NCBI GenBank assembly: GCA_947561395.2
Contig: OX387185.1
Location: 39,256,602 to 39,320,601 of the forward strand
Length of the DNA stretch: 64,000 nucleotides
Reading direction: 5' to 3'
Origin: Buxus sempervirens
Taxonomy: Eukaryota > Streptophyta > Magnoliopsida > Buxales > Buxaceae
Shown: in pieces, positions 2,930 through 52,878 of the stretch
How the letters are laid out: each line of letters starts with the position of its first letter
Numbering within the stretch: the stretch's first letter is position 1
Translations under genes and position numbers: made by a program
The notes under the pieces: generated by a model
The model's database searches: none
Seen by the model: only the letters and a program-made list of their open reading frames with translations
Told to the model about the DNA's origin: nothing

Positions 2930-3069
2930 CCGTATACACAGTACGGTCCAGCCCTGCCCGTATTCAAATTACGAGCCAGCCGTGACCGTATGCAATCCAC
3001 GGGCGAGCCTAGCCCGTATAACCAATACGGGCAAGCCCAGCCCGTGTACTAAATCCGGTTTTACGGAAC
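2930..3069. repeat. 28-bp palindromic tandem array in the E1 leader (5 units)
   Basis: CCGTA-type left arms start at 2930, 2958, 2986, 3014 and 3042, an exact 28-bp period. Each unit is an imperfect palindrome, for example GCCCGTAT with ATACGGGC around a short loop, followed by an AGCCNA-type spacer. The same repeat type and spacer occur in the E1 LTR near 5885-6000. No known function. Confidence 0.9.
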
Positions 3070-5884: not shown

Positions 5885-6005
5885 CACGTGTCTTTAATGC
5901 CCGTAAATGATTTACGGTCCAATGGTGACCGTATTGATATTACGGGCGAGCCTGCCCGTAGACATTTTGCGGGCGAGATCGGCCCGTGAAGAAAATACGG
6001 GCAAA
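5885..6005. repeat. 28-bp palindromic tandem array in the E1 LTR (4 units)
   Basis: Four units of 27-28 bp, each with a (G)CCCGTA left arm and TACGGGC or TACGGTC right arm, separated by GAGCCT-type spacers. They lie about 200-300 bases upstream of the E1 TATA box and match the leader array at 2930-3069 in arm, period and orientation. Confidence 0.9.
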
Positions 6006-11269: not shown

Positions 11270-11425
11270 GGCATTAATCGACAACTCAGGTCGGTTAACC
11301 AAAGTATTCTTCTTATCCGACATGTTCCATCGGTTACAAAGGCTTATGCATGTATCCGATTATTTGTCTCGGATACAATAAGCCATAGCTTTAGCCGACA
11401 TGTCATGTCGGATACATTCAGAAAA
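11270..11425. repeat. 39-bp palindromic tandem array in the E2 leader (4 units)
   Basis: The G of the CCGA or TCGA core falls at 11280, 11319, 11358 and 11397, an exact 39-bp period. Arms are of the TATCCGAC/GTCGGATA type, some decayed. It corresponds in position to the 28-bp array in the E1 leader, upstream of the minisatellite. Confidence 0.9.
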
Positions 11426-11700
11426 TGCACAAATTGGTTTTTTCATCCCAAATTTTCAGAATAAAATGCCTAAAACACTGTGGATAATCCTTAGGCACCC
11501 CAAAAAGAATATAAAATGTTTCAAAAATAAATAAAAAAAAAATCTCACTAAGGGTTTAACCAAATGTTGAAACACAAATCTACATTTTCATTAAGGTAAA
11601 TTGAGGTGTCATATTTTTTGATACCAATTTAATTCAAACATATTTCAATTAAGCTTTTGAACTTGAAAACTGAGAAAATTCAGCAATTAAAAGAAAAAAA
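11426..11700. other. E2 leader, no feature recognised
   Basis: AT-rich spacer between the palindrome array and the 76-bp repeats. Nothing recognised. Confidence 0.6.
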
Positions 11701-12308: not shown

Positions 12309-12445
12309 AAACAAAAGCAAAAAAATATATATAAAAAAAAAACAAATAAATCTGGACTCTTATTCACCTAACCTACTTGTCTACATTTATAAGGGTGTGA
12401 CTCAAGTTAAATGGAAGCTGACATGTTTCTTTGCTTTTCCTTTTC

Positions 12446-12448
12446 CAG
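12446..12448 (+). promoter_or_regulatory. Predicted 3' splice site before E2 gag
   Basis: A strong pyrimidine tract (TTTCTTTGCTTTTCCTTTTC) runs directly into CAG/GT, 52 bases before the gag ATG. E1 has the same site at 1866-1868. It would pair with the conserved LTR donor (GTAAGT at 31376 in the 3' LTR copy). Confidence 0.6.
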
Positions 12449-12499
12449 GTACATTTACTTGCAATCATTGCTCCCGTGACCAGATCTAAAGCCCGCACC

Positions 12500-14209
12500 A
12501 TGAATATTGAAGAGAACCAAGCTCAAGCCACCTTACCCGCTCAAGACTTTGCTCAGCTACAAGAGCAAGTGGCCGGTCTGACCAAAATGTTGGGGGACTT
12601 ACTGGCGGCTCAGGCCCAACAGGCCCAGGTCCAAAACCAAGCCTCTACTTCCCATCAAGCACCACCACCTCAAGCCTACATTCCACCCCCTGCTCAACCC
12701 ATGCCTGAACCCATCTCTGAACCAGTCCCTGAACCTATCTTGATCAGGGAAAACACTGTGGAATCTGAGAAAGAAATGGAGAAGGAAAAAGCTAGGGAGG
12801 AGATGGAAAGGAAGCTCTTGCACAAGATAGAGAGAATCCAGGAAGAACTCAAGGAGGTAAAGGGGGGAAACAGCTATGGAGGTACCACCTTCGATGACCT
12901 GTGCATGTACCCAGATGTATGCTTACCGGCCAAGTTCAAGTGCCCGGACTTTAATAAATACGATGGCACGGGTTGCCTAATGAGCCACTTGAAACTATAC
13001 TGCGGGGCCCTATACCAGTTTGGCCGGGATGACGGCAGACTGATCCAACTCTTTCAGAGGAGTTTGACAGGGTCAGCCTTGAGGTGGTTTGCCACGGTGG
13101 ACCACGGAAGGATCAGAAGATGGAAGGACTTAGCCGATGCTTTCCTGAAACAATATAAGTTTAACTCAGAGATCGTGCCAGACCGGTACGACATGATGAG
13201 AATGAGCAAGGGAAAGGAGGAGTCCGTAAGGCAGTACGCTAAGAGATGGAGAGAGGCTGCCTCCCAGGTCATGCCACCTATGCTGGAACTTGAAATGATC
13301 TCAACATTCGTGGGTACACTGGGGCAGCCCTTTTACAACCATCTGGCGGGACAAATCACCACCAATTTTGCAGCCCTGGTACAGGTGGCAGACCGGATTG
13401 AGGAATGGGTCAGGTCAGGAAGGCTCATTGACTACTCTACTTTGACCGGGCAGTCTGATTCCTCCGCTTCCCTGGCACAGAAGAAGGGAACTGGGTTCAA
13501 GAAGAACGGAGCCAGGAAAGAAGGGGAAGTGAACCTGGAGGCTTCTCCCGCCAAGAAACCACTCCATGTCAACATCTCTGCATCCCAGCAGGCCCAACAC
13601 TCATATCAAACCTCACTCAATGTCAACTTCTCCCCCTCCGTGCCTGCAAACCCGAGGAGGACTTTTACTAAGGAAGAGAGGGAGGCCTGGTTAGCAGCAA
13701 GAAGGAACAGAGTTTTCACGCCTCTCCCGGTATCTCTCTTCCAACTGTTGTCAACCCTGTTGAAGGGGGAATATGTGACCTTGAAGGAGCCTAGCCCGAA
13801 TGCAACAAAGGGGAGGAATTTCGATCCGGCAGTCACTTGTGACTTCCACATGGGTGTACCAGGGCACTCTACAGATGTTTGCTGGGTTCTGGAGCACGTA
13901 GTCTAGGATCTGTTGGATCAAAAGGCCTTGGTTTTCAACACTGCTGCACCCGCCCCGTCGGGGAATGATATTGGGCAAAACCCTCTGCCTTACCATAATG
14001 GGATAGGCCCGTCCAATTCCATCACTGCAATATCCGCTACGAGAAGGGCCTTTGACCCATCTCAACTAATAGCTCCCGTGGAGACCTCGGTCAAGGTCTA
14101 TTTCTTCCAAGAGAAAGAAGAAGAGGAGGTTAATGTTATCTCCAGGAAAAGTGATGAGGCTGCTGAAGATATTAGCTCCTCTTTGAACCGGGTCTCCTCC
14201 TCCAGATAA
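12500..14209 (+). pseudogene. gag of E2 (in-frame stop)
   Basis: Structural polyprotein. The ATG at 12500 is the first after the predicted splice acceptor and follows PVTRSKART. Order: Gln/Pro-rich N-terminus, charged helix (ESEKEMEKEKAREEMERK), capsid core around KYDGTGCLMSHLKLYC and LIQLFQRSLTGSALRWF, a basic linker, then a knuckle-like CDFHMGVPGHSTDVC at about residues 455-470. A TAG at 13904-13906 replaces the Gln codon that E1 keeps; the frame then continues to a stop at 14207-14209. Typical Tat-lineage gag. Of all E2 parts it is the least decayed. Confidence 0.9.
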
Positions 14210-16585: not shown

Positions 16586-17330
16586 GTGGTGAAATGACAC
16601 GGTTCTTGGCAGACTACAAAGATGTATTCGCTTGGTCGTATCGGGACATGCTGGGGTTAGACACTGACATGGTGGTGCACAAGTTGCCGATTTTGCCAGG
16701 GGTTAAGCCAATTAAGTAGAAGCTGAGAAAATTGAAACCTGAATGGACTCTGAAGGTCAAGGACGAGATGGTCAAGCAATTCCAAGCGGGATTTCTGGCA
16801 GTCTCCACATACCCCGAGTGGCTTGCAAACATAGTGCTAGTACCAAAGAAGGACGGAAAAGTCAGAATGTGCGTGGACTACCAAGATCTGTACAAGGCAA
16901 GCCCAAAGGATGATTTTCCGCTTCCACACATCGATATTCTGGTTGATAATATTGCGGTACATAGCCTATTTTTGTTCATGGATGGTTTCTCTGGATACAA
17001 TCAAATAAAGATGGCTAAGGAAGATCAAGAGAAAACAGCATTCATCACACCTTGGGGCACCTTCCATTATACAGTCATGCCATTTGGGTTTAAGAATGTC
17101 GGGGCAACGTACCAGCGGGCCATGACAGCACTATTCCATGACATGATCCATAAGGAGATGGAGGTCTATGTGAACGATATGATTGCCAAATCGTGCAAAG
17201 AAGAGGACCACTTGATTAATCTGAAAAAGGTGTTTGATCGTCTCAGGAAGTACAGTCTACGGCTTAACCCGGCTAAATGCGTCTTTGGCAGGGAAGTTGC
17301 TGGGATTTATTGTAAGCCGAAAAGGAATTG
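16586..17330 (+). pseudogene. Reverse transcriptase of E2, catalytic Asp lost
   Basis: RT copies element RNA into DNA. Recognisable blocks are FLADYKDVFAWSY, LVPKKDGKVRMCVDYQDLYK, FPLPHID, FMDGFSGYNQIKMA, FITPWGTFHYTVMPFGFKN and YVNDMIAKS. The canonical YVDD box reads YVND (AAC at 17173-17175), removing one of the paired catalytic Asp residues. Stops lie at 16582-16584 and about 16719, and a frame change near 17290 joins the RNase H part. Position and motifs leave no doubt about the family; activity is impossible in this form. Confidence 0.93.
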
Positions 17331-17990
17331 AAATTGACCCGACTAAAGCCAAGGCCATAATTGAAATGCCATCACCCAGAACAGAGAAGGAGGTTAGGGG
17401 CTTTCTTGGAAGAATTCAATATATAAGCCGGTTCATAGCACAGCTCACAACTATCTGTGAACCTATTTTCAAGCTTCTAAGGAAAGATAACCCGACGGTC
17501 TGGAATGAGGATTGCCAGCAGGCCTTTGATACAATAAAGAAATATTTGCTGAACCCGCCTGTGCTAGTGCCACAAACTCCAGGAAGACCGCTGATCCTGT
17601 ATTTGTCAGTGTTGGAAACATCGATGGGATGTGTCTTGGGGCAGCATGATGAGACTGGTAGAAAGGAAAGGACAATTTACTATCTGAGTAAAAAATTCAT
17701 AGAATATGAGGCAAAGTACTCACCATTGGAAAAGACTAGTTGTGCTCTAGTGTGGGCAAGTCAGAGGCTAAGGCATTACTTCCTTAGTCACTCCACATTA
17801 TTGATATCTCGGATGGACCCTTTGAAGTATTTATTTGAGAAACCGGCACTAATTGGCAGACGACAAAGTGGCAATTGCTACTATCCGAGTTTGACCTCAC
17901 ATACATCACTCAGAAAGCGATTAAGGGTCAAGCCATTGCTGATCACCTGGCTGCACATCCTTTGCCAGAATACCAACCTTTGAAGACTAA
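17234..17990 (+). pseudogene. RT connection and first RNase H of E2 (frameshifted)
   Basis: Gypsy-type RT thumb and RNase H. Visible: GFIVSRKGIEIDPTKAKAI, SPRTEKEVRGFLGRIQYISRFI, PVLVPQTPGRPLILYLSV, TIYYLSKKFIEYEAKYSPLEK and RLRHYFLSH. Near 17860 the frame shifts by one; the continuation (LLSEFDLTYITQKAIKGQAIADHLA) is in another frame to about 18020. The domain would remove the RNA strand during reverse transcription. Its motif positions that usually carry acidic residues are partly changed (LYLSV where the family has LYLSVS or LYLDA). Confidence 0.88.
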
Positions 17991-18029: not shown

Positions 18030-18520
18030 AGTGAGAGTTCTTGGCAGATGTTCTTCGATGGGGCCGCCAACATGAATGGAAATGGAATAGGGGCAGTCTT
18101 GGTCAAACCAGATGGTTCACACATCCCGATTGCAGTGAAGCTGAGATTCTAGTGCACCAATAATATTGCAGAGTATGAAGCATGTATAATTGGGTTGCAA
18201 GCCGCTATAGATCATGAAGTGGAGGAACTTGATGTATACGAAGATTCAAGTCTTATCATCTTCCAAACAACTGGTGAATGGAAAACCAAGGATCACAAAT
18301 TGATCCCCTATCACCAGTATTTGGAAGAAATAAGCACAAATTTTACTCGAATTTCCTTCAATTATATGCCTAGGGCCAAGAATCAGTTCGCGGATGCTCT
18401 AGCAACATTGGCTTCAATGGTCAGCATGCCAGAAGGGGTAGACATCAAACCGCTGGAAATTGAGGTCAGAGATGAACCGACTTATTGTCTCGTTCTAGAG
18501 GGAGCACCGAAAGAATAAGC
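18030..18520 (+). pseudogene. Second, archaeal-type RNase H of E2
   Basis: An additional RNase H follows the first: MFFDGAANMNGNGIGAVLV, NNIAEYEACIIGLQAAIDH, YEDSSLIIFQTTGEW and PRAKNQFADALATLAS. The Asp, Glu, Asp and terminal Asp of this fold are visible in these blocks. A TAG near 18150 interrupts it. Carrying two RNase H domains is a defining trait of the Tat lineage, so it supports the classification of E2. The frame ends at the stop at 18516-18518. Confidence 0.88.
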
Positions 18521-18528
18521 ACCATGGT

Positions 18529-19622
18529 TTCAAGACATCAAAAATTTCTTGAACGATCGGAGTTTGCTAAAAAATGCCACTTCTACTGAGAAAAGGACAA
18601 TACAGAGATTAGCCAGTCAATTCCTACTAAGTGGTGGACATTTGTACAAGAGATCACATAACGATATTCTGCTCAGATGTGTTGCTAAGGTTGAGTCAGA
18701 AAGGTTAATCGAGATTGTACATGGAGGAGTCTGTGGACCCCATATGAACGGACACATGCTTGCAAAGAAGATTCTACAGTTGGGATACTACTGGTCGACC
18801 ATGGAGCATGATTGCTGTATACATGTCAGGAGGTGTCACCAATGTCAGATGTATGCAGATAACAAGCATGCACCCCCCAAGTGAGTTGCACAACATGACA
18901 TCACCATGGCCCTTTTCCATGTGGAGCATAGATGTTATCAGCATGATTTCCCCTAAGGAATCGAACGGGCACAGATTCATCCTGGTGGCAATCGATTATT
19001 TCACTAAGTGGGTTGAAGCGGCTTCGTACGCAAATATCACAAGTAACCATGTTATTAAATTTTTGAAGCACAATATCATTTGTCGTTATGGACTGCCAAG
19101 TGCCATAGTATTAGACAACGCTTTAAATATTAAGAACAAGGATATGAAGAAGATGTGTGAGCAGTTTTAGATTACTCATCACAAGTCAACTCCATACAGG
19201 CTAAAGATGAATGGGGCAGTAGAAGCAGCAAACAAGAACATAAAGAAAATCATTCAGAAGATGGTAGTGAGTTACAAGGATTGGCATGAAATGCTACTAC
19301 TTGCTCTACATGCCTACAGAACCTCAATCCGGACTTCAACTGGGGCAACCCCGCATTCCCTGGTCTATGGGATGGAAGCAGTCTTGCCAGTGGAAGTCGA
19401 AATCCCGTCACTTAGAGTGCTCATGGAGGCTAAATTGGAAGAGAAACGTTTGAAGGCGCTTTGCCATGGCCAATTATACCAGAGGAGAATGGCCTGGGCC
19501 TACAATAAAAAGGTGAAGCCCAGAACTTTCCAGGAAGGAAACTTGGTGCTAAAGAAAATCTTACCATTTTTGGAAGATCCTCGTGGTAAGTTCAAGCCGA
19601 ATTGGGAAGGGCCGTATGTCAT
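18529..19622 (+). pseudogene. Integrase of E2, split by solo LTR B2
   Basis: Zinc-binding region with H, H, C, C residues (HGGVCGPHMNGH ... CHQCQMY), then a frame change near 18880. The catalytic core follows with the Asp in WSIDVIS, the Asp in VLDNALN and the Glu in GAVEAANKN, i.e. the DDE triad is present. A TAG lies at 19168-19170. The chain runs to GKFKPNWEGPYV at 19622, where solo LTR B2 enters; the C-terminal tail resumes at 22564. Integrase would insert element cDNA; this copy is broken by stops and the insertion. Confidence 0.92.
19618..19622. repeat. Target-site duplication GTCAT, left of solo LTR B2
   Basis: GTCAT at 19618-19622 is repeated exactly at 22564-22568, on the other side of the LTR. 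Confidence 0.93.
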
Positions 19623-20754: not shown

Positions 20755-21005
20755 CCGGGCGCTAGGCGCGAGGTCAGCGCGAAGTGGGCGGACCGAAAAC
20801 AGCGAAAAAAGCACCCAAAAACGAAGTGGGCGCACCCAAAATGAAGTGAGCGCACCCAAAAATGAAGTGGGCGCGAGCTGAGCGCATCCAAAATTAAGTG
20901 AGCGCGAGGTGAGCGCATCCAAAACTAAGTGGGCGCGAGCTGAGCGCATCCAAAACTAAGTGGGCGCCAAGTGAGCGCACCCAAAAATGAAGTAAGCGCA
21001 TATAC
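20755..21005. repeat. GCGC-type tandem array in B2 (period about 31 bp)
   Basis: Units of AAGTGGGCGCGAGCTGAGCG plus a CATCCAAAACT-type spacer, period 31 bp for the clearest ones, and shorter half-units of about 20 bp to their left. Arms are GC-palindromic. It occupies the region downstream of the LTR TATA box, where B1 carries its second CCGT array. Confidence 0.85.
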
Positions 21006-22002: not shown

Positions 22003-22410
22003 TTGTCAGCTCATATTTTTTTCATCCGGGCTCCGATCTGGGCAAACTCAGTTGCGTTAGAATTGTATCGGAGCCCTCTATCCAATGGCATGGGGGTAAG
22101 CACCTGGATCGGATTTTAGCAGAAAGTCAACTTTTGGCTTTGCCCAAGTTTGACTGCCCGCAGAACCTTCATCCGGACTCCGATTCCCGCAAACTCAGTT
22201 GCGCTGGAATCGTGTTGAGATCCTCTATCCAATGATATAAAGCAAGGCCTCTGGATCAGATTTTAGCAGAAAATCAACTTTTGGCTTCGCCTAAGTTTGA
22301 CCCCCCGTAGAACCTTCATCCGGACTCCGATTCCTGCAAACTCAGTTGCGTTGGAATCGTGTCGAGATTCTCTATCCAATGATATAAAGCAAGGTGGCCA
22401 AATATCACTT
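22003..22410. repeat. Threefold repeat of about 145 bp in B2
   Basis: Three diverged copies contain CATCCGGACTCCGATT, GCAAACTCAGTTGCG and CTATCCAATG, then AAAGTCAACTTTTGGC. B1 has about two related copies at 9300-9560. Located near the minus-strand start of the LTR. Confidence 0.85.
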
Positions 22411-22563
22411 AATCAAAAAGTCAACTTTTTGTCCCCTCGGGGTTTGACTTTCTGCCAGGGTTTTGAGCTGTTTTGCTGTCTTTTAGCACATTTTTTTGTT
22501 TTCTTATTTTCTTTTCTTTTCTTTTTTTTCTTTTTTGGTTTGATCAAAATTTGGGTGCTTACA

Positions 22564-23652: not shown

Positions 23653-25334
23653 CTAGCCTCTGTCTCCTAGATGCTCTTCAAGCTCCCGAATCCGAGCTGC
23701 CTGAGTTGCAATAACTCCAGAAGCCCCCTCTGCAGCGGGATCACTCAAGAAGGAAATGACCTCATCTGAAAGGGTCTACCTGATCCACATGCTCCTAAGG
23801 CTGGCCAAAGCATCCTGGTGCTTTTGCCGCAGTACTCGGACTTCAAGGCAGTGAGCTTGCCTCTGCTCCTCAAGTTGCTTTTCCATAGCAAGATGGCGGG
23901 ATACCTGCTCTGCAAGTTGCCTCTCCATGTCAAGACCTCGTATCCTAAGCTCTTGGGCCTCTCGTACCCATATCTGCTGAAGTCGCTTGTGAGAGGCTCT
24001 CTCGGACTCCAGGATGTCTTCATAAGTAGAAGCCAAAACTACAAGAGGATGTTCGGGTACTGGGGCCTGACTCTGTATCTGCTCCTTCATCCAGAAGAGA
24101 TAGTCCTTCACATGGGACTCTGAGAAGATCGGGCTCCGCATAAAACGAACATAGGACCACTCCCTCATCAACCAAGCATTCAGCTTCATGGTGGCTAGTG
24201 AAAGTGGCCCAAGATGGTCTTCGTACCCACTTAGGATTATAATCCCTTGGGTTGCTCTGAACTGACGAAGAACCCTCAAAGGGAGGTAAAGCACAGCATG
24301 TCCCAAGCCAGCCAGGACCAAAAAGTTGCAGTCTCGAAAGCTGATCATTGTCTCTGCATTGGGCTGATAAGTACCAGGCCACCTCACCAGATCATCCCGG
24401 AGTGTAGCCAAGAAAGTAAACCAGCCCTGTTTACCTCATGGAATGTCAGGACACCCCCGGTTGCTCATCAAAATAGGAACCTTCAAGCTGGGGAAGAAGT
24501 GTCGATTGATCTCTTCAATCTAATTCAGGTGTTCAAGTAACCAAAGCTACAAAGGAGAAGGGATATTTCAGTATATTGTAAAGCAAAAGGAAAAAAAAGG
24601 CAAGCAAAAAAGAAAAAAAAAAGCTACCTGCAGGATAGGTGCACATGATAGGAAGCGCTTCTTATTCCTGTAGTAACAGTCAGTCAAAGCTTGGTACATC
24701 CCTGCCAAAATCATAAGGGCCAATCTCTCGTGCTCCCTAACCTGCATACAACTGAGATAAGGGACAAGTCTACCTCATCGTCATCCCGTGAGAAAAGCAG
24801 TTGGTTAACCACTATCAGGGTTAGAGCATTGAACCTGGCTTCCTTGTTCTCCCCCCTCAAAAGCTTCTTAGTCAGAAAAGACTTGGACAAGGTCAAAAGG
24901 GTGTCAGAATCCCCTAAATCCTTCTTCCCTATACCTAGGAAAGTAGAAGCCTCTTTCTTATAACTAGGCTTGAGGGGTGGGTTCACTACCTTCTCTGCAA
25001 ACCTCAAACCCAGGATCTTCTCAACCTCTTCAATAGTGGGGGTCATCTCGTGGTTTCCGAAATGAAAAAGGTTTAGGTCAGGTACCCAATGGCCAATCAT
25101 GGCTTCAATAATTTCCCACTTGAATGGGATGGAAGGGATGAGCAAAGTGTGGCCTAAATGAATAGAATCATATCTGATCTCTTCATCAAGGGTCATGGAA
25201 TTGACCCACCTAGTGTAGAATGAATCTACAGGGCTGTACCTGGTGAGATTAGTGGGTTTTGCTCTAAAAGGTTGTTTTGCAAGGGAGGCTGCGTGGACAG
25301 ACAATGGTAGGGCAGAAGATGATCTGGAATCCAT
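23653..25334 (-). pseudogene. Antisense plant-mobile-domain-like gene X1 (DUF7745-like)
   Basis: Starts at the ATG at 25334 (MDSRSSSALP). Exon 1 (to 24628) holds a block, IPFKWEIIEAMIGHWVPDLN with FHFGNHEMTPTIEEVEKILG, typical of plant mobile-domain/DUF7745 proteins carried by transposable elements. A one-base frame change lies near 24745. A good 81-base intron (CAG/GTAGCT to TTTGTAG) spans 24547-24627. Exon 2 has LVRWPGTYQPNAETMISF, then a long Glu/Arg/Gln-rich coiled coil (SERASHKRLQQIW to QKHQDA). Stops at about 24437 (CGA to TGA), within exon 2 near its start, and at 23776 (CAG to TAG) break it. The natural end is near 23653. Antisense to E2. Role unknown; relatives are domesticated silencing cofactors in some plants. 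Confidence 0.7.
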
Positions 25335-25440: not shown

Positions 25441-25456
25441 GCATTTATAGCATTTT
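25441..25456 (-). promoter_or_regulatory. TATA box of antisense gene X1
   Basis: The minus strand reads TGCTATAAATGCAACC about 105 bases before the X1 ATG. The 39-bp palindrome array begins immediately upstream of it. Confidence 0.65.
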
Positions 25457-25610
25457 TTAATGTATCCGATATATCAGATCGGATACAAAAGAGTCTTTTC
25501 ATATCCGATGAAATATGTCGGATACAAGGGGATGTTAATGTATCTGACATATTATATCAGATACAAAGAAGTTTTAATGTATCCGATCTGATATGTTGGA
25601 TACAAAGAAA
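25457..25610. repeat. 39-bp palindromic array upstream of X1 (4 units)
   Basis: The core G positions 25468, 25507, 25546 and 25585 give an exact 39-bp period. Arms are TGTATCCGA-type with TCGGATACA-type, spacers AAAGAAGTTTTAA-like. Arm, period and plus-strand orientation match the arrays in the E2 LTR and leader. Confidence 0.92.
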
Positions 25611-25801
25611 AATGCAAAAAAAGAAGAAGAGAAAATGGAGAAAAATCCGAATTTTTTACCTGTGTACAAGTTGTAATTGCATGAAATTGAAAAAAAAAGA
25701 GAGCTAGACAAAAGAGAATAAATAAAAAAAGGTTTTTTCCATATATAAACAAGTCTCTTTGTACAATGATAATGCAAAAAAAAAAAAATGAAAATCCTAA
25801 T

Positions 25802-28800
25802 CTACTGCTCCTGTGCAGGATCACCTCGGCATCCTCTGCCTCGTCCTCCTCTGCGACCTCTACCTTGGGATGGTCAACGACTAAAGGCATGGGAAATGAT
25901 ACGCGTGGCAGCATGGTGAGGCAACCGACCCACAACGGACTGAATCTGATACTCCAAGCAGTACTACGAAAGGTCTGGAAGCAGGTCAGGAGCAGAATCT
26001 GGTGAGGAAGCCTCAGGCTCAGCAGCAACCAGCTCAATTGGACCCTCAGCCACAGCAGTCTCGACTCCTGCAGCTCCAGAAGGCTCGGCAGCAGCAGAGG
26101 AAGGACCAATAATAGAAGTATCTGGGTCAACAGAAAGGGTCAGAAACAGAAGTATCAAGATAAACCAAAGAGGGAAAATTAAAGAAAACTTACCAGGAAT
26201 ATCTACAGCAGGAACAGGGGGATCCATCTCAACCGGATCAGCAGCAGGGATGCCCTCTGGCTCAGGGACCACCACGGGAGATGAAGGACCCACAGGATCC
26301 GCAGGAGTAGCTACCACCGGGTCAATAGCTGGGGCATCATCAGGATCAGCAGCCCGAGCCGGAGATGGATCAGGAACAGGGAAATCAGGCTCAAAGGCAG
26401 CATCCTGATCTGGGACTGGGCCCTGCAAAAGCAAAAAAGTTTATATCAGAACAGCAGGACATAGAAATGAAAGAGATGAAATTATAAAGAAACCAGATAC
26501 TTGTCTAGCCTGAAGCTCAGCAACCAGAGCCTCCAGCTCTCTGATCCGAGCATCCCTCTGGGCCACGACCGCGTCATGCTCTGCGATCATATCATCGATT
26601 GCGGCCCGCTGGCTCTGGAACCGGTCCCGCAGAGCGTTCAGCTCATGTACCTGCCAATAAGAACAAAATTAGGGTCATAAATGCAGAGTTGAAGGAAATC
26701 AGATGAAAATGATGAAGATCACAAAACTCACAGTATCATCATGAACCCGGATATAGATCCCGCCGATCTCTATCACTCCAGCCCGGGTGGGTCGATCCAT
26801 CAAGCACCCAATGGATACTCTCTGGATCTACTCGTCATAATCCCCAGCTACTGTGAGCCCCTTCGCCTCCTGATAATGATCAAACTGATCAACATCAAAA
26901 CCAGGCAGGAGCGTGTCGGGACCCACAGGAGGAGGGGGAACGGGGATATGAAGTGTGCCTATGTGCTAATAGTACAGGCGCTCTCCTAAATACATCAACC
27001 TACCAAGCCTCCCAAGGAAGCACTTGTAGGGCTGACGTCGGAGATCTTTATCAAAAGCATCTTGTACTATCATCTCCCGGGCCACCCCAATATCCACGTC
27101 ATCAAAGTGTGCCAGGATGAGCTACAAAGAAGAAAAAATGGTCAGATACAGTCAAGGTACAGGAAAAGAAATAAAAGAGAAAGGGGCAAAGAACTTAAAT
27201 CGGATCGTCGGGCACGGTCCAAGTGAACTCGAGCAGTGCGGGGCTGACTCCTATCTGCGTCTCGGACCTGGGCCGACCACCGCAAGGCAACGGGGAACTC
27301 CGCGACACCAGGCACTGGGGATGGGCAGAAGAAAGTCATGTAGGTGTACATAAACACCTGGCAAAAGAAAAATCAGTCAGGGATAAAGAAGATAAAGCCT
27401 AAGGAATAAGACAAGACAGATGAATTTAATACCTGCAGAATCTGCCAGAAGAACCTGTAGCTAACTCCATCACCTCTCGGAGCGGTCAGGCCCCGAACTA
27501 CTCGGCACAGCCCGGCCAAGATCGTCCCATATATAAGCCGACCCATGCTAGCTGGCGGGTCTGATGGAAATCTCGCAGAGCATCCTAAAAGAGGGGACTA
27601 ACACTAGCCGTGTCCTCCTAAAAGAAGCAGCTCCCGAGCATCAGCAGAAACACATGTCGGAAGATGGGTTCAAAGGCTGCATCCTCCACAATGACGGTTG
27701 CATGGGTGCAAAGGCAGCAACTGTATTATTTTCTCAACATCCCTTCATTCCGAGCCGATCGTCCCCTCATCTTCACTATGATGGAGCGATATTTTCTGGA
27801 GACGCAGTCATTCCATCTGCAAGACGTGGAGCTGGGGATCCGTCCTTCTGATTTTGTGATGATCATCGGCATTCCTCTGATGGGCGGACTATTGTTTTGG
27901 ATCGGCCTTCAATGGCGGACATTGGCCTTCTCTTGGGCTATTAGGACCTGACTAACACTAGTCGTGTCCTCCTGAAAGAAGCAGCTCCCGAGCATCAGCA
28001 GAAACACATGTCGGAAGATGGGTGCAAAGGCAACAACTGTACTCCCCTCATAATGTCGAGTAAGGCTCTCCCGCAGCCAGCTAATGGAGATACGACCACT
28101 CTGCCCGTCCCAAGCAGCATGAGGCAGGTCCTAATAGCCTAAGAGAAGGCCAATGTCTGCCACTGAAGGCTGATCCAAAACAATAGTCCGCCCCATTAGA
28201 GGAATGCCGGTGGTGATCATCACAAAATCAGAAGGACGGATCCCCAGCTCCACGTCCTGCAGATGGAATGACTGCGTCTCCGGAAAATATCGCTCCATCA
28301 TAGCGAAGATGAGGGGACGATCGGCTCGGAATGAAGGGATGCTGAGAAAATAATCTAGGTGGCACATCCCGAACTCACGCCTGAGTGCCGGAGAAAGTGT
28401 CTGCGCCAACTCACTGAATCTCCCCCAGCTGCCTCGCAGATGGGAGGGAGGATACAGAAGAGAAACGTCGGCCCGGATGCACATGGAGGGGTGGCTATCC
28501 AAACCGCTGAGGAGCTCGGTATAATGAACAGACGCTCTCAACTCTGCAGAGACCCCTAGGCGGAAAGCTACAGCAGCACCCTCCTGGCCTGAAGCTCCAG
28601 CTCGGCCTTGGCCCCGGCCCCTCTCTCCGGCTCGACCTCGGCCCCTCTCACCAACTCGGCCTCCGTCTCTCTCTCGGCCTCTACCGCGACCTCGAGTGGG
28701 AGCCACAACGGGCTAAAAGCAGAAATGATTAGTTGAAGTCGGTTTCAAATGAAGTAGGAGAGGAAAGAAGGAATTTGAATGCCTACCTCAGCAGAGCCCT

Positions 28801-28936
28801 TAGCAGAGCTCTCTCTGGCATCATCTAACGGCTCCGACAGGGTGGCGCTAGAACTCGCCTCTGTCTGATCCCGCGAAGTGGAGGGCTGATCAGCTGGATC
28901 AACCTCCTCTCGCACACGAGAGCGACTCCTAGCCAT
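25802..28936 (-). pseudogene. Antisense multi-exon plant-mobile-domain gene X2 (PMD)
   Basis: ATG at 28936 (MARSRSRVREEVD). Exon 1 ends GAG/GTAGGC at 28787; a 74-base intron (28713-28786) ends TTTTAG. Exon 2 has an Arg-Gly-rich stretch (GRGRGRERDGGRVGERGRGR), then a PMD core: FAMMERYFPETQSFHLQDVE and PSDFVMIT. Later pieces are DLPHAAWDGQSGRISISWLR, RWSAQVRDADRS (exon near 27357-27184), FDDVDIGVAREMIVQ with YLGERLYY (about 27110-26960), a coiled coil near 26500-26650 and Pro/Ala-rich repeats (25964-26434) with an intron at about 26125-26193. It ends in an Arg-Gly-rich tail at 25802. Stops at 28131, 25964 and elsewhere, and an internal rearrangement at 27.6-28.35 kb, disable it. Exon borders other than the first are approximate. 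Confidence 0.7.
27589..28355. repeat. Rearrangement in X2: inverted copy between direct repeats
   Basis: 27727-27951 is an inverted copy (roughly 93% identical by eye, with small indels) of 28130-28355, part of the PMD exon. It is flanked by direct repeats at 27589-27675 and 27950-28032 containing GTGTCCTCCT and AAGAAGCAGCTCCCGAGC. The order direct repeat, inverted copy, direct repeat, original suggests a template switch during replication or repair. Confidence 0.9.
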
Positions 28937-30255
28937 CTACATAGGGAAGTGTTTTATGAATTTCAGTTCAAATTTATCAGAAATTTTACCTTACTTTTGG
29001 TCTAGGTTTCAGTTCACAAGAATCTTACATGATTTTTTTTCAAAATTATCATGAATTGGGTCTCGAGGGAATTTTATCTCATTTTTGTTTCAGTGCAAAG
29101 TTTTTGGGAAGTGAGGGATATTTCTGTTTTCTAAAACATTTGTTTTCCTAAATCCTAAAAAAAAGATTCCTACAAAGATTAATCTTTCCTAATGTGTTAT
29201 GATTTCAGGACATGAGAAAATTGAGGGCCAAAGGGTCAAAAGCAGGCAGCATCGCAGAAATCCAAATTGGCAAGACAGGTTGGGAAGTCAATTGGAAAAA
29301 TTTTACAGCAGAGTATGGTGGTAAAATTGAAAGTGAGCATTCCACCCGCAATAGTTCATCAGAAGCCTTCACTACCGGCAATATAGAAGCAAAGAAAAAA
29401 AAAAAGAAAAAGAAAGGCATGCAATCAAAAATTCCAGTGGGAGGTCACCACCAACAGGAAATCAGGATTCAAGTCAAAGAAAATTTTTTTTGGTAGCAGG
29501 GTATTAGTAGCATATCATTCGAAAAATCATGCAATTTGACCTCCACTGGCAGACAGCTCAAGAATTGGCATGATCAATTTGGAAGTCAAAGCAAATGGTG
29601 AAAAAAGAAGAAGAAAGAACAGCATGGTATTTACAAATCAAAAGTAATCAATTCGGTCAGAATTCCTCATCAGTAGAAATTCCAAGCAATGCAAGTGAGA
29701 GTCATAGCATCACAAGAAAAAAAAATGAAACATTGCAATTCAGGAAAAATGAATCGTGTTTGTTCAAAACAACCAAGGCAATTGCGAGAATCGGTGAACA
29801 AAAAATTCATCAACACATCAAGCTCAAGATTTGCAGAAATTCGTGAACAAAATTGCTCGAAATTGGGAACCAACATGAATAAGCACTCATTGTCAGGGAC
29901 AGTAGAGAAATGGGCGACTGATGGCAAGCTGGAAATCGGATGTGAGAGGAACGTTGCCTAGGTCGCCGGAACACCAATGGAATATCACTAGAGCTGGCAC
30001 GACGGCGTCGGATGAGGAAGTTACCAGAAATCAGAGCAGAAAGAGCCGAACTAGGGCTCGACAAATGAATCTTGAGCGTTGGAAGTCGTCGGACCTAGCA
30101 AAGTGGTCGCCGGCAACAATGGAGGGCACCGGAGCTACTGGAAATCGCTGGAGAAGAAGGAAGAGTAGTCGGAGAAGAAGGGTCTGTAGCCGGTTTGAGT
30201 ATTCAGAGAAGAAGAGAAGAAAGGAAAATTCGCGGTCGTGCGCAACTTAATAAAA
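28937..30255. other. E2 3' region upstream of X2, no gene recognised
   Basis: Plus-strand open stretches here are biased in composition (Lys/Arg-rich) and match nothing I recognise. On the minus strand it could be the 5' flank of X2. Confidence 0.5.
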
Positions 30256-30330
30256 ACAAGTGTATCCGACAAAGCATGTCGGATACAAATAGCGGTCTTC
30301 TTATCCGACGAGTTACGACGGATACGAAAG
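30256..30330. repeat. 39-bp palindromic array near the E2 3' end (2 units)
   Basis: Two units with core G at 30268 and 30307. The first is TGTATCCGAC paired with GTCGGATACA; the second TATCCGAC with a decayed right arm. Same type as at 25457, 11270 and the LTR. Confidence 0.85.
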
Positions 30331-30435
30331 GAAAAACAAAAAAAGAAAAAAAAGGAGAAAAACAAAATAAAAAAGGAAAAAAGAGAAAAAGAAAAGAAAA
30401 AAAAAGAAAAGAGAAAAGAAAAAGAAAAAATATGC
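30331..30435. repeat. Purine-rich low-complexity tract
   Basis: About 100 bases almost entirely A and G (AAAGAAAAAGAAAAG-like). It produces spurious Lys/Glu-rich frames. Confidence 0.85.
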
Positions 30436-30690
30436 TCCAAAGTCTGTTATTTTTCACAAAAAAACCCTATTTTTGGCTTAAAATCCACATCATAGCCATG
30501 AGAGCTCAGTGGAATTTAGGACAACTTGGGGAAATGTGTTGGCCAAAAAGGAAGATATTCATTCAATTTTTTCAACTTGGTTCGGGAAAAAAAATCAGTT
30601 TTCAAAAATCTTATTTTTGGGCTTAAAATCCACTTCACAGCCACGAGAGCTCAGTGGAATTTAAGACATCTTGGAGAGATGCCCCCTTAA
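30436..30690. repeat. Imperfect duplication before the E2 polypurine tract
   Basis: Two blocks (about 30466-30530 and 30607-30680) share CTTAAAATCCAC, TCACAGCCA-like and GAGAGCTCAGTGGAATTT. No function evident. Confidence 0.7.
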
Positions 30691-30819
30691 ACTTAGGGCT
30701 TTTTGGCAAATCTTCACTCAAAAATTATTTTGCAAAATTGAATTGAACCAAACAAATAATGGTTAAGGGAGTGCAATTTGGGCTTGTCTAATCTTTGCAG
30801 CTCATTGCTTCACAACTCC

Positions 30820-30835
30820 CGTAAAGAGGGGCAGT
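30820..30835 (+). other. Polypurine tract of E2
   Basis: GTAAAGAGGGGCAGT ends exactly at the LTR start TGTAGACACC. A purine run at this point is the plus-strand primer of LTR elements. Confidence 0.75.
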
Positions 30836-30936
30836 TGTAGACACCCCGAATTGCACAGTAAAAATGAAGAATAATTGGCAAAAATCATTATCTCCTTTGA
30901 AACCAGCACAAAATTTGGGAAAATAGGCATTCTTCT

Positions 30937-31083
30937 TTGTATCCGACAACTCAGGTCGGATACAAGCACACTTCTTCGTATCCGACATAAGTTGTCGGAT
31001 ACAAGCAGGCTTTAATGTATCCGATATCATATGTCAGATACATATAGGCACTCGTGTATCCTACCTGATATGTCGGATACATG
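30937..31083. repeat. 39-bp palindromic array in the E2 3' LTR (4 units)
   Basis: Units start at 30939, 30978, 31017 and 31056, exactly 39 bp apart. The first is perfect: TTGTATCCGAC and GTCGGATACAA around a 7-base loop. The second has 10-base perfect arms; the third and fourth carry two mismatches. It sits 165-310 bases upstream of the TATA box. Confidence 0.95.
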
Positions 31084-31246
31084 TTTTTTGCTCAAAATTA
31101 GGGTTTTCCGAGAGTTTTCACTTTTTACCATCATATCCTTCATTAAATGAGTGGAAATCTCGGAAATAGCCTTAGGGTTAAGGTTGGTGGGCTCTAGACA
31201 TTATGTTGTGTCTACCATCCCACCAATCCTAACCCTGGCCTTTGCC

Positions 31247-31378
31247 TATAAATAGGAGGCTCCTCCTTAAGCAAAAGGCCATTAATTTTTGCTAATAACT
31301 TTTGCCAAGAAGTTGGAGATCAAAGAACTCCGAGTGAAGAGGGGAACCGCTGCAGTCTTGCTTCCAGAAGCCCAAGTA
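31247..31378 (+). promoter_or_regulatory. E2 LTR TATA box, first exon and splice donor
   Basis: TATAAATAGGAGG at 31247, then about 125 bases without an ATG, then CCAA/GTAAGT with GT at 31376-31377. The layout is conserved in all family A LTRs of the window. Confidence 0.7.
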
Positions 31379-33352
31379 AGTCTCAAACCTCTCTTTATTT
31401 TTCTATTTTTACATTCTAGATCTAGATCTCTTCTTCTACCTTTTTGTAGAATAAGGCCTCTTCTATGTGTATGAAAACCCTTCCCCTACTCAAAGTACCT
31501 CGAGACTCCCCCTAACCGTAAAACGTGAAGGCGGGATCTAGGGGAAACAAGACTGGGGATTGATCCCAGTGTTAGAACCTTGTTGGAATAAGCCTTTTGA
31601 TTCTATAAAAACCGTTTCATATTCAAAGTATCCCAATATTATCTTGAAGAACCGTGTGTAACGGGGAAAGAGAACTAAGGGAAATGATAATGGAACGGAA
31701 CCCTAGGTTGTTTTAGAACCCCATTTGATTGATCTAAATGCGTGCTATATGTTATTATATTGTTAAAGAATGGATTTTTACACATACACACATAGCACTT
31801 GTTTTGTCGGATTTGGCTTGTATTTCGGATCTATTGCCGTCATTGTGGTAGATCTGGAATAAATAGCCCTAAAAAATTCTGGGATATTTCCTATTATTTT
31901 TAAATTGATTTCAAGCAAGTTTTGTTGAGTATTGAAGGCCTCTAGCTCCAACCTCTGGGTTTTTGGGCACTTTTGCTCAATATTGGGTCTTTTTGGCATA
32001 TTCTCTCCAATCGGAGAGAATGGTGAGCCAAGCTTGTGTCCTATTTTTCCTAGAGGTTCTTCAACACTTTTTCAAGTAATTTTGATTCATCTTTCACGGA
32101 ACACACACACTTTGTCACTGTTTTAAATTGATTTTATTCAAAAAAGGCTTAACTTGACAGCAACTGTACCCCAACTTCGGACACTCGTAACTTCATCGTC
32201 CGGATGAATTTTGGAGTGATTCCAGAGCCATGGGAAAGGTGAGGCTGTCTAGTTTATGCCTGTAAAATTTCATTAATTTCTATCAAGCGAATTTTTGACA
32301 CCTCTCTGTCGAAGTTGCTAGGTCAGTTCAGGTCTGAATATGGAACCTGTCACTTTGACTGAGCGCCATGTATTCGTTTTATGTCTGATTCGAGCGATTC
32401 TTGTTTATGTGTTTTCCTTTGGAAGTTTAATTTCAAATCCAGTTGGTTTCATAATTTGTTGACTCTATTTGTGTCGTGGGTAACAGATTTACTCAGAACT
32501 GTTCAACAGAACTTTTCTAGGTAAATCTGTGATCTTCGGGGCCTGTTCGGGAGGTCACCCAAGGCACATCCGAATGAATTTTTGTATGAGGCTAGTTTCA
32601 TTTGAAAGATGGCCATACATACTTCATTCACACCAAATTTCATGGATTTATATGGAACAGAGTTTTCTAGATGATTTTCCAAACTTGCCCACTTGTCACT
32701 TTTTACTATCTCCAACAGCAATTTTAAAAGAAGCATAACTCCTAGGATTTCAACTGGATTTAATTGAAATTTTGCATGAGTCTCTTATTTACCATAATCT
32801 TTCAAATGGATTTGGTTTGATTCAATTTAAAATTGGATTTGAATGATTTCAAGACAAATGGCATTATCTTTTACCGAATTTTCCAGATTTGACTCAACTT
32901 GGGTTTATGCAATTTTTGCTTTGATTTCCATCTATTGGTGATATTCCAGAAGTGATATTGACATAAAAGAGGATCTGGAATTCATTTGGATTTCTCATAT
33001 GAAAATATCATATATTTGTTTAATCTTTTTTCAAGGTTTTCAATGATTTTAGCAAGCTTTATTATTTTTTAGCATGAACAACACTTGGCAACCACCTTTT
33101 GTGGGTGAATGGGGGTGCCTAACACCTTCCTCCGTTCATAATCTAACCCCCTTACCTATCTTTGGATTTTATTTTCAAGTAGAGTTATTTTTACTCTAGT
33201 ATTTGCCTTTTTAGCTCTTTTTGCTTATTTTTGAATCTTTTGGTGTCCATTCACACCTCAAAAATCTGAATGGTGGCGACTCTCCCAATTTTAGGTTGAG
33301 CTCGTGTGATGACGGAGGGGGAATCATCCCGATGATTTTTCCATGTCTCACA

Positions 33353-47333: not shown

Positions 47334-49127
47334 TGTAGACACCCCAAATTGCACTAAAAATGAGAAAATAATGAAAACATTAATTGGAATTTAAAACAGG
47401 CCAAAAATGCATGAAAATCAATAATTTAAGCCTTGACCGTATTATATCTACGGGCTAAGCGCGCCCGAATTTTATATACGGGCACGTAGCGCCTGTAATA
47501 CATATACGGACACCTTTGGACCGTAAATCATTTATGGGCACATCAGACTCGTGCGAGGTCTGTTCTTCTCTCGATTTCTGAGCCTTATCTTTAGTCCAAT
47601 ATCCCTTTAAATGAGTGAATTATATATTTTATTCGTGCGAAATATCTTTGTGGATAAAGGATGGACATGATCTTGTGTTTAACTCAAACTGAAACTCTAT
47701 CTTGCCAAACCTTAGACCAACCATGCCCCTGGGTTTGCCTATAAATAGAGGGTCTTTCCTCAAGCTAAGGGCTACGAAAATTTGAAGTCCAAGGAACTCC
47801 AAGAGAAGAAGAGGAACCCCTGCTGCTCTGCTTGCTCAATCCAGGTAAGTCCCTTTTCCCTTTTATTTTCTGTCTTCAATTCTAGAAATAATAGGATCTT
47901 CTCTATTGCTGTAGAATAAGGCCATATTTTGTATCTGTATTCCTAAACTTGCCTCCAAGTACTTCAAGAGTCTCTCTAGCCGTAAAACGTGAAGAGAGAG
48001 CTAGGGGAAACGAGAACAGGTGGATCCCTAGAATAGAACCCCATATCTGTTTTTCTCCTTTTTTTCTAGAATAAAGCCTGTGATTGTGTTTGTATAACCA
48101 AACCTATCTCCAAGTACCTCAAGAATCCTCTCTAGCCGTAAAACGTGAAGAGAGAACTAAGGGAAAAGAGAACAGGTGGATCCGTAGGGTAGACCTCCAT
48201 GTGCTCAAATCTGTGAGATGTGGCTGCTTTAAATATCTTGATCATGTTTTAATTATATATCTGAATAAATACATAAATCCATGATGTTTATAGCACGAGA
48301 TCCCACTTTTTTATAAAATTTGGATTTTTCACATATTTGCACCTACAGCACTGTTTTCGTAATTTTTGGTGATATTAGGCTAAGATCTTGGATTTATCAT
48401 GATCAATATGGTAGATTTGGATCCAGAAGCCTGAAAGTAACTTCTAGGGTTTCATGATGTGGTTTTTGAGTCCTTTTTCATGTTTGAGAGAAGACCCTAC
48501 GATTTAAGTTCTCCCCTTTTGGTGTTCTTCATCAATGTGGGTATTTTTTATTTTTATTTCTGGATTTAATGTGAAATATGGGCTCTACCTATGTCCTGGA
48601 CTATTCAGGTTCAATTTTGAAATATTTTATAAAAATCATATTTTTCTAGATTTCTAGAATTTGACTTGAAGCCAGATTTTTGGATTTTTCACTTTAAATT
48701 GATTTTATTTGATTTTATCCCAATTTTATTTTGATCATGTAACCCTAGGAATGGTATGATCATATTTGAAAGTTCTGGATCAATCAGACTATTCATATGA
48801 AAAAACCATATATTTTTGTCTTCTTTTTGTGATTTCTTGGTTTTATAGCAAGCTTTTTCCTTTAATTTAACATGAACAATACCTGGCAACCACCTTGTGT
48901 AGATGAATAGGGGTGCCTAACACCTTCCCCTGTTCATAACCTAATCCCCTTACCCATCTCTAGTTGTTTTTTTAGGAGGGTTATTTTTACCCTAAAATTG
49001 CCCTTTGTGCTTATTTAATATTTTGGTGTCCATTCACACCTAAATTGAATGGTGGCGACTCTTTGTTTTATTCAATCCCGTGTGATGATGAGGAAGTCAT
49101 TAGATTGATTTTTTCCCATGTCTCACA
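47334..49127 (+). mobile_element. Solo LTR, family A (1794 bp), target duplication CTTAT
   Basis: Begins TGTAGACACCCC and ends CCCATGTCTCACA, flanked by exact CTTAT at 47329-47333 and 49128-49132. It has the 28-bp array (47437-47540), TATAAATAGAGGG at 47740, a donor CAG/GTAAGT at 47845 and duplicated GCCGTAAAACGTGAAG blocks at about 47979 and 48132. Closest here to the E1 LTR. No internal domain. Confidence 0.95.
47435..47550. repeat. 28-bp palindromic array in the solo LTR at 47334 (4 units)
   Basis: Left arms CCGTA, CCGAA, CTGTA and CCGTA start at 47437, 47465, 47493 and 47521, exactly 28 bp apart. Right arms TACGGGC or TACGGAC. It sits about 200-300 bases upstream of the TATA box. Confidence 0.92.
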
Positions 49128-50116: not shown

Positions 50117-52878
50117 TGTAGACACCCCAAAATTGCACGATTTTTGATAAATCTTGAAGGAAAGAAATATTTTATTGGAATTTTCAGTTCTTTGCATTGG
50201 GTTTGAGATACTTAACCCATTTGAATCCAAAACGGAAAAGGAAAAGGCCCGAATTCAATCTTTTGTGTAAAGTCAAACCTTTTCCAGTTGAATTTTGTTG
50301 ACTTTTGACCCCAGAAAATAAAATATTTTTTAAAGCCAGATTTCAAGATAATTTTTCCCGGTAATCAGGTTTTTAGCCATGTTATTGCATAAAAGAATTT
50401 TTTTAAGATTTTAAATCTTGGCGAATACCTTGGTTTTAACATATTGAACTTTTTTTCCAGACCTGAAAAATCAGAATTTTGCCTAGAACTGGAAAGTTGA
50501 CTTTTTATTCACTTGGAATTTGGGTCTGGAACTATTTTTAATGGATTCAAATGGGGGGTGTTTGCTTATTTACATGTAATATCTTAAGTAAATGGAGATT
50601 AAAAAATACGAGGACATTTACTTAAACGATATTACATGTAAATAAGTATTACCTATGTTAAAATTCGAAAAAAAGGCTTTTTTCCTTGTATCCAGCAACT
50701 CAGGCCGGATACAAGTATTTTCCTTTGTATCCGGTGGAACATACCGGATACAAGCAATCCTTAGTATATCCGGCATTATAGACCGGATACATAAGTTTTG
50801 CTCAAAAATTAGGGTTTTCCGAGAGAAATCACTTTTTACCATCATATCCCTCATTAAATGAGGGGAAATCTCGGAAACAGCCTTAGGGTTAAGGTTGGTG
50901 GGTTCTAGACATTAAGTTGTGTCTACCAACAACCCTAGCCTTTGCCTATAAACAGGAGGCTCCTCCTTAAGCAAAGGGCCATTAACTCTTGTTTTGAATT
51001 CTCACCAAGAAGAACTCCAAGAGAAGAGGGAAATCGCTGCGGAAGTGCATCCAGAATTCAGGTAAGCCTCAAACTTTTCTTTTATTTTCTGTTTTTACAT
51101 TCCTAGATCTAGATCTCTTCTTCTACCTTTCTGTAGAATAAGGTCTTCTTTGTGTGTGAAAACCCTTCCCCGGCTCAAAGTATCTCGAGACTCCCCCTAG
51201 CCGTAAAACGTGAAGGCGGGATCTAGGAGAAACGAGACTGGGGATTGACCCTAGTGCTAGAACCTATGTAGCATAAAGCTTTTTGATTGATTGTAAACCG
51301 TTTCATATTCAAAGTACCCTTGATTATCTTGAAGAACCGTGTTTAACGGGGAGAGAGAACAGAGGGAAACGATAATGGAACGGAACCCTAGGTTGTTTTA
51401 GAACCTTATTTTGATGAATATGTATGCATGCTATGTTGTTCTATTGATCTTGTATGGTTTTTCATACTTGCACTTACATATCACTATTTTGGCGGGATAG
51501 GCTCATATTTTGGGTTTATTGCATTTATTGTGATAAATCTGAAATAAATGGCTTCAATCAATTCTGGAATGTTTTGAAATGGTTTTTAAAAGATTTGGAT
51601 TCATCTTGCACGAATCACACACACTTTGTCACAGTTTTGAGTTGTTTTTCTCCAAAAAAGGCTTAACTTGACAGCAACTGTACCCCGACTTCGGACACTC
51701 ATAACTTCATCGTCCGGATGAATTTTGGAGTGATTCCAGAACCATGGGAAAGGTGAGGCTGTGTAGTTTATGTCCACCAAAGTTCATTAATTTCTATCAA
51801 GCGGATTTTTGACACCTCTCTGTCGAAGTTGATTGGACAGTTCAGGTTCAAATACAGAACTTGTCACTTCGACGGAGCGCCATGTGTTCGTTTTAAGTCC
51901 GATTCGAATGATTTTTGTTTCTGGGCACTCCTTTATGAGTCTGTTTTTAAATCCAATTGGTTTCATAATTTTTTGACTCCATTTGAATTATTGGTAACAG
52001 ATTTACTCAGAGCTGCTCATTAGTACTTTTCTGGGTAAATCTGTGATCTTCGGGGCCTGTTCGGGAGACCACCCAAGGCTCATCCGAATGAGTTTTTGTA
52101 TGAAGCTAGTTTCTTTTGAAAGATGGTCATACAGACTTCAATCACACCAAATTTCGTGGGGTTTTATGAAGTGGATTATTCTAGGTGAGTTTCCAAAGTT
52201 GCCTACTTGCTACTTTTGATTTTCTCCGGCAGCAACCTTACAAGGAACATAACTCTTAGGTTTTCACCCGGAATTACTTGAAATTTTGCATGAGACTATT
52301 ATTTACCATAATCTTTCAAATGGATTTGGTTTGATTTGATTTAAAATTGGATTTGAGTGATTTCAAGACAAATGGCATTACTTTTCACCGAATTTTCCGG
52401 ATTTGATTCAACTTGGCTTTGTACATTCTTTTGCTTGGTTTTTTATCCTTTTATGACATTTCAGAAATGATATTGACATAAGAGAAGATCTAAAATCCAT
52501 TTGGATCTTCATGTAAATATATCATACACTTGTTCCTTTTTCAAGGCTTTTCATGATTTTTTAGCAAGCTTCCTATTTTCTTTAGCATGAACAAACACTT
52601 GGCAACCATCTTGTGTGGGTGAATGGGGGTGCCTAACACCTTCCCCCGTTCATAATCTAATCCCCTTACCCATCTCTGGATTTGATTTTCAAGTAGGGCT
52701 ATTTTTACCCTAGAATTTGCCTTTTAGCACTTTTTTGCTATTTTTGCTTATTTTTAATTCTTTTGGTGTCCATTCTCACTTCAAAATTATGAATGATGGC
52801 GACTCTCCCACTTTTGCATCGATCCCCGTGTGTTGACGGAGGGATGATCATTCCGGTGATTTTTTCCCGTGTCTCACA
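50117..52878 (+). mobile_element. Solo LTR, family A (2762 bp), in the hAT element
   Basis: Begins TGTAGACACCCC and ends CCCGTGTCTCACA. Flanks ACGGT (50112-50116) and ACGGC (52879-52883) agree in four of five bases, consistent with an old target duplication. Contains a three-unit 39-bp array, TATAAACAGGAGG at 50948 and a donor CAG/GTAAGC at 51062. Nearest relative here is the E2 3' LTR. Confidence 0.9.
50686..50800. repeat. 39-bp palindromic array in the solo LTR at 50117 (3 units)
   Basis: Units start at 50688, 50727 and 50766, 39 bp apart. Arms GTATCCGG with CCGGATAC; compared with E2 the core has changed from CCGAC to CCGGC/CCGGT on both arms, so pairing is kept. Confidence 0.93.

Follow-up and report, generated by a model that had tools for sequence, protein, structure and literature searches.

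We analysed a 64,000-nucleotide stretch of the Buxus sempervirens genome (the window; GenBank assembly GCA_947561395.2, contig OX387185.1, positions 39,256,602 to 39,320,601 of the forward strand) containing E2, a long terminal repeat (LTR) retrotransposon that carries short palindromes in tandem arrays at four separate sites. A sequence-only reading of this DNA had described one 39-bp palindrome repeated at each site. The four arrays are present with an exact 39-bp period: four palindromes in the leader, between the 5′ end and gag (11275..11414); four upstream of an antisense DUF7745 gene (25463..25602); two near the 3′ end (30263..30324); and four in the U3 region of the LTR (30940..31079). 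However, 39 bp is the repeat period only; the palindrome itself is 23 bp long, TATCCGxy-N7-y′x′CGGATA (8+7+8), and the shared plus-strand orientation also claimed for the arrays is meaningless for a palindrome. When up to 3 mismatches are allowed, TATCCGAC-N7-GTCGGATA is found 16 times in the window, whereas dinucleotide shuffles predict 0.02 matches. Wear is visible in the leader units, where 6-7 of 8 arm positions pair. A chance origin of the arrays was rejected by dinucleotide-shuffle, reversed-pattern and address-shuffle controls, the address being the two bases xy.

Additional arrays in the window had been overlooked. The LTR of another copy holds 2/16 of the matches at 50689..50789, with the same 39-bp period and the same placement before the TATA box and with CCGGC/CCGGT-type arms versus CCGAC. 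A second element, E1, lies on the minus strand and has CCGTA-N7-TACGG units in its leader (2930..3058, period 28) and CCGTR-N7-YACGG units in its LTR (5901..6000, period 27-28); a third, E1-related LTR carries such an array at 47437..47537 (period 28).

Three of the four E2 arrays flank promoters, on both strands, since there are TATA or TATA-like boxes near the upstream, 3′-end and LTR arrays. The TATA box of the antisense DUF7745 gene (25444..25449, minus strand) is 14 bp from its array, a placement identical in 16/16 copies examined. About 10 bp from the 3′-end array is a TATA-like box, TTATTA (30248..30253, minus strand), for a second antisense gene, which resembles plant mobile domain (PMD) genes; a TATA-like box at this distance occurs in 11/11 copies, 7 found by regular expression and 4 by eye (TTTATAA). 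The LTR TATA box (31247..31252, plus strand) lies 168 bp past the LTR array, and this distance is 157-169 bp in 9/12 copies.

Both antisense genes, DUF7745 and PMD-like, sit between pol and the 3′ LTR of E2. The first exon of the DUF7745 gene (24711..25334, minus strand), a relative of the plant mobile domain, scores 40.8 bits against PF24924 (cut-off 26) and 28.8 bits against the PMD profile, under the cut-off of 34.9. An open frame at 23779..24435 (minus strand) is the probable second exon, as suggested by longer homologous frames in other copies; it has no Pfam match. Neither exon has a match in a sequence search of the PDB. A coiled coil in the exon-2 tail was considered and not supported, a simple heptad count giving only 44% hydrophobic a/d positions. 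Part of the PMD-like gene, with an RG-rich N-terminus, is found at 28131..28706 (minus strand; PF10536 24.3 bits, under the cut-off of 34.9), and related frames span 174-226 aa in copies L037-L040 and 179 aa in L036. An inverted repeat with 148-bp arms, 95% complementary (27718-28361), overlaps part of this gene.

On the plus strand, E2 encodes a gag open reading frame (12431..13906; Pfam PF03732, 1.9e-10), a reverse transcriptase (16732..17331; PF00078, 2.3e-25), an RNase H of the RT_RNaseH type (17234..17983; PF17919 and PF17917), a second RNase H (aRH, RVT_3; 18153..18515; PF13456, 8.2e-18) and an integrase with zinc-binding and core parts in two overlapping frames (18519..19167; PF17921 and PF00665). 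Because the second RNase H lies between RNase H and integrase, the Ogre/Retand marker within Tat (PMC6317226), this domain order assigns E2 to the Ty3/gypsy Tat lineage, as an Ogre or a Retand element. Ogre is probably the correct subclade, since there is a PMD-like antisense gene and the antisense frames scanned, which cover part of the region and of its exons, give no match to the Retand marker TRP28 (PF04195). The 3′ LTR (30836..33352, plus strand; TG..CA, ends read from the sequence) follows a purine-rich tract at 30822-30834 and, in a self-comparison of the window, shows homology with LTRs that end near 49127 and 52880; self-BLAST of the window finds no second copy where the 5′ LTR is expected. 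A 76-bp unit is repeated in tandem eight times (11700-12309) after the leader array and before gag.

The palindromes are abundant in the genome. The exact pattern TATCCGRY-N7-RYCGGATA occurs 31,706 times in 676 Mb, versus 2 times for the pattern read backwards, and the exact palindrome with GT/GT address occurs 8,968 times versus 194 for the mixed AC/GT form. On contig C1, for example, GT-address clusters at 3441663-3462269, 3679797-3699986 and 4234190-4254972 have spacing and loops that would fit the LTR, leader, antisense promoter and LTR of a single element. Our E2-family copies come from the top 150 of 5,225 candidates and are thus a non-random sample. In this sample, 51/52 distinct copies, the window copy counted, have an array upstream of the DUF7745 gene. 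Among 1.7-kb pieces taken at a fixed distance, 11/20 carry the LTR array and 11/20 the 3′-end array, the rest being perhaps truncated or shifted. Of six 9.9-kb copies, five have the LTR array and four the 3′-end array (L035 has neither; L040 lacks the 3′-end array). The leader array is found in 3/8 5′ regions (L063, L066 and L068), with no array in L061, L062 and L065, and it is distinct from the 5′ LTR array as L063 carries both. Other copies of the family do therefore possess the internal arrays, the point on which the sequence-only reading had staked itself.

To compare addresses we wrote each half-site as TATCCGxy and took in 50/52 copies, leaving out L009 (no array) and L006/L035 (duplicate filter); 18 copies have at least two sites. 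The fraction of G at x in one array closely follows that in the others of the same copy, with r = 0.948 for upstream vs LTR (n = 17), r = 0.984 for upstream vs 3′-end (n = 16) and r = 0.984 for 3′-end vs LTR (n = 15), values that 0/10,000 shuffles reach. The expectation that array type is more alike within a copy than between copies is thus borne out for x at these three site pairs and is not significant for the leader. This agreement also supports the shared role that had been proposed for the arrays. Outside the E2 family, a cross-site match within one copy is seen for the LTR and leader of E1 in the window.

An antisense-gene tree of 35 rows divides the copies mainly into an A-clade and a G-clade. 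We compared the array columns between the clades after setting aside L083 and L040 (switched or mixed) and excluding arrays out of register (L030 and L053 upstream, L071 and L085 in the LTR). The columns that differ are 19/20 at x, 7/20 at y, 0/120 in the core, 10/70 in the loop and 13/112 in the spacer (x vs loop plus spacer, Fisher p = 4e-14), and units keep the 39-bp register in 46/48, 15/15 and 14/16 arrays. At three sites, then, the arms differ in concert between the clades, with loops and spacers largely unchanged. Such a pattern could in principle arise through concerted evolution with no trans-acting factor, in which template switching, conversion or slippage would spread an arm type between the sites of an element. 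Arrays do get copied and slip, since the loops AACTCAG and CTGATAT recur at several sites and the LTR arrays of L036 and L064, from the same assumed copy, differ in length by one unit. However, LTR units 1 and 4 have mostly the same loops in both clades and different arms, loop columns differ at only 10/70 against 19/20 for x, and array copying alone does not account for a core that stays intact and an N11 spacing that families share; we consider this explanation quite improbable. The unit difference itself, three units in the 5′ LTR piece L064 versus four in the 3′ LTR of L036, looks like unit-wise slippage.

The constant part of the motif was found by looking further afield. Of 118 scored DUF7745 matches, we took a distant sample of 18 that end at the exon-1 end, plus 2 of the single-exon type, and scanned the 500 bp before each gene. 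CCG-N11-CGG is present before 18/18 of the distant genes (53 sites; at least 2 sites in 15 loci and a symmetric site in 16), and any other CCG/CGG spacing from 3 to 21 is present at ≤5/18. The address is symmetric in 33/53 sites, versus a shuffled mean of 14.9 and a maximum of 25. Addresses at these loci include TA, TG, AA, CA and GC/GT, and the periods differ too. Two of these types were counted genome-wide: CCGTA-N7-TACGG occurs 28,303 times vs 1,785 for its control, and the AA form AACCGAA-N7-TTCGGTT occurs 1,634 times vs 24. Among the single-exon genes, L107 has no CCG-N11-CGG and L108 has one lone asymmetric site. The AA-address site pair L109 and L110 is assumed to lie within a single element. 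At L096, L098, L104 and L106, asymmetric half-sites (TA/CC, TT/CA or TT/CG) surround a symmetric CA/CA unit at a spacing of 28/41/28, and these might be heterodimer sites.

The distant loci bear on a second alternative, that the arrays are sites for an existing plant transcription factor that reads TATCC/GGATA-like sequence and were multiplied to boost promoters. The half-site does start with TATCC, which we take to resemble the I-box recognised by MYB-related binders, and a placement upstream of TATA boxes is ordinary for such sites. However, the part held constant across families is CCG-N11-CGG and not TATCC, TAT before the first CCG being absent in E1 and at 17/18 distant loci, and one shared factor does not require addresses that differ between families and match within copies. 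We regard a host factor as unlikely.

We favour, with somewhat better than even confidence, the reading that the arrays are an operator: tandem sites for a dimeric, family-matched, sequence-specific DNA-binding regulator that is probably encoded by the element. A dimer is suggested by the fixed pair of triplets at 11 bases, by a two-base address that differs jointly on arms and sites, and by the adjacency to promoters. Each half of the dimer would read CCG-xy, with the halves held at the CCG-N11-CGG spacing. As the same operator would stand beside three promoters (sense LTR, antisense DUF7745 and antisense PMD) and in the leader, one factor could govern the whole of E2, and a shift in its specificity would be followed by changes of x, and partly of y, in both arms at several sites. 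The binder may be the DUF7745 or the PMD antisense product, and binding would activate the element or protect it from silencing rather than repress it.

The sequence-only reading had left the choice between one regulator and RNA hairpins, of which the regulator fits better. Hairpins in the genomic RNA, serving packaging, stability or as a source of small RNA, would keep the arms complementary, and the arms do pair and agree in address; the sense RNA would also include the leader, internal and 3′ U3 arrays. But hairpins need complementarity only, not one arm sequence common to several sites, and they would not require CCG and CGG to stay 11 bases apart in families where only about 5 bp of each arm pairs and where this spacing is kept with other arms and another period. 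Moreover, three of the arrays are upstream of a TATA or TATA-like box; since the U3 array and both antisense-promoter arrays precede their respective TATA boxes, they fall outside the start of their own transcripts. We find the hairpin explanation very improbable.

Several observations count against the operator reading. The leader array has no consistent TATA box (4 copies), and x agreement for leader-site pairs is not significant (n = 3-4, the leader being represented by 4 copies only). Base y agrees across sites more weakly than x (r 0.49-0.85). The address is not strict, as 72% of clade-A copies have a G-type base in one right half-site of the upstream array. Two clades supply most of the cross-site match of x. 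Address types are mixed in L040, L073, L031 and L033, and L083 falls in the G clade despite its A-type arms; the L083/L084 copy, the sole hint of an independent address switch, may instead be a recombinant. L009 lacks the array upstream of the DUF7745 gene. Among the distant loci, 2/18 have no symmetric site, 3/18 have a single site, TATAAA follows the array in only 11/18, and one locus, L094, is of E2's own kind. Finally, exon-1 residues were tried as determinants of the address and rejected: L071 and L083 pair A-type arms with the clade-G residues R54 and K68, so these residues fail to track the address, and no specificity determinant was found in DUF7745 exon 1.

We suggest that the regulator of the operator reading is element-encoded because, in the related families sampled, the DUF7745 gene has arrays in front of it, because this gene is strongly conserved, and because antisense products are suspected of DNA binding, the product of the Retand antisense gene being predicted to bind DNA (PMC11963269). 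The ratio of nonsynonymous to synonymous substitution (dN/dS) for the DUF7745 exon is 0.14 for the 28 pairs of 8 clade-A copies, 0.07 for the 91 pairs of 14 clade-G copies and 0.07 for the 112 pairs that span the two clades (dS 0.89), with L075 dropped (no anchor) and L040, L073 and L083 outside both groups. The exon is therefore under purifying selection among copies.

A wider proposal, possible in our view and somewhat doubtful, is that Ogre-like elements share one operator code across the superfamily, CCG-xy-N7-y′x′-CGG, in which the address would act as a private key for the element's own antisense DUF7745/PMD dimer. Key and lock would change together, and each family would activate or un-silence only itself. 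The role of the antisense genes kept by plant Tat elements is stated as unknown (PMC7264820, PMC11963269, PMC5418596); the proposal, if true, would supply that missing function and provide a retrotransposon counterpart of VANC, the DNA-binding protein of VANDAL elements discussed below. It would also offer a natural series of operator-specificity switches over very many copies, bearing on how selfish elements avoid cross-talk and on the engineering of address-specific plant regulators. If the antisense products do read the operator, address-swapped sites would allow a direct test with a built-in control.

The statement that the arrays have no described counterpart was too strong, because the palindromic boxes of Sireviruses and the targets of VANC proteins are close. 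In Sireviruses (Ty1/copia), each family has its own palindromic repeated motifs (RM boxes), placed before the TATA box in the LTR and before the ENV gene; the other Ty1/copia elements studied lack them, and small changes in the boxes were suggested to alter binding (PMC2829016). As in E2, the boxes are CCG/CGG palindromes in many copies, clustered before the TATA box in the LTR and upstream of an extra gene. However, Sireviruses are Ty1/copia elements with a sense ENV as the extra gene, whereas E2 has a Retrotrans_gag domain and the order RT-RH-aRH-INT (reverse transcriptase, RNase H, second RNase H, integrase), which is not that of copia. The RM consensus is CGG-N(1-6)-CCG in 12/13 cases, with CCG-N6 or N7-CGG also in three and CCG-N11-CGG in 0/13, whereas E2 has CCG-N11-CGG; the sections on these boxes mention no pair of antisense promoters and no concerted switch of address (PMC2829016). 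Judged by sequence, then, the E2 arrays share the RM layout and differ in superfamily and in core polarity and spacing.

The motifs bound by VANC proteins occur in tandem and are not the same in every family (PMC5735166). Like the arrays here, they are short motifs set in tandem in non-coding parts of the element and vary among related families; they co-evolve with a protein that the element encodes. In contrast to E2, VANDALs are MULE DNA transposons, their 8-9-bp motifs are not called palindromes in the part of the paper that describes them, and VANC binding and demethylation were demonstrated by chromatin immunoprecipitation sequencing, electrophoretic mobility shift assay and bisulfite data (PMC5735166); in E2 the candidate binders would be the DUF7745 and PMD proteins.

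Closer relatives of E2 share its architecture. Ogre and Retand have aRH between RH and INT, antisense open reading frames and family-specific tandem repeats; a PMD gene is present in 57% of Ogre elements (PMC6317226, PMC11963269). The antisense domain of Retand is TRP28, which has no match in the scanned E2 frames. The sections concerned describe no palindromic promoter array (PMC6317226, PMC11963269); tandem repeats of 8-100 bp are listed in PMC11963269, where palindromes are named only in the title of a reference. Only Gypsy elements encode PMD clades A1 and A2, and what the domain does is given as undetermined (PMC5418596). The PMD proteins MAIN and MAIL1 are also tied to a promoter motif, DOWN, and to silencing of transposable elements; unlike the candidate E2 regulators they come from the host, CCG-N11-CGG is absent from the DOWN example CATGCAGTTT, and whether they bind DNA directly is given as unknown (PMC7156037, PMC9899485). 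Our literature search of open-licence papers found no Ty3/gypsy counterpart of palindromic promoter arrays and nothing on DUF7745. The Ty3/gypsy setting, the fixed spacing and the concerted address switch look new.

Searches of the window for Rfam families and for tRNAs returned 0 families and no tRNA. Monomers of a 147-bp repeat are found at 9308-9602 and 22021-22461 and are 61-79% alike to one reference copy. GCGC-rich tandem repeats are present at 20811-20993, after E2 pol (period 21-62), and at 6917-7021 (period 22), and these are possibly another, partly palindromic type of array.

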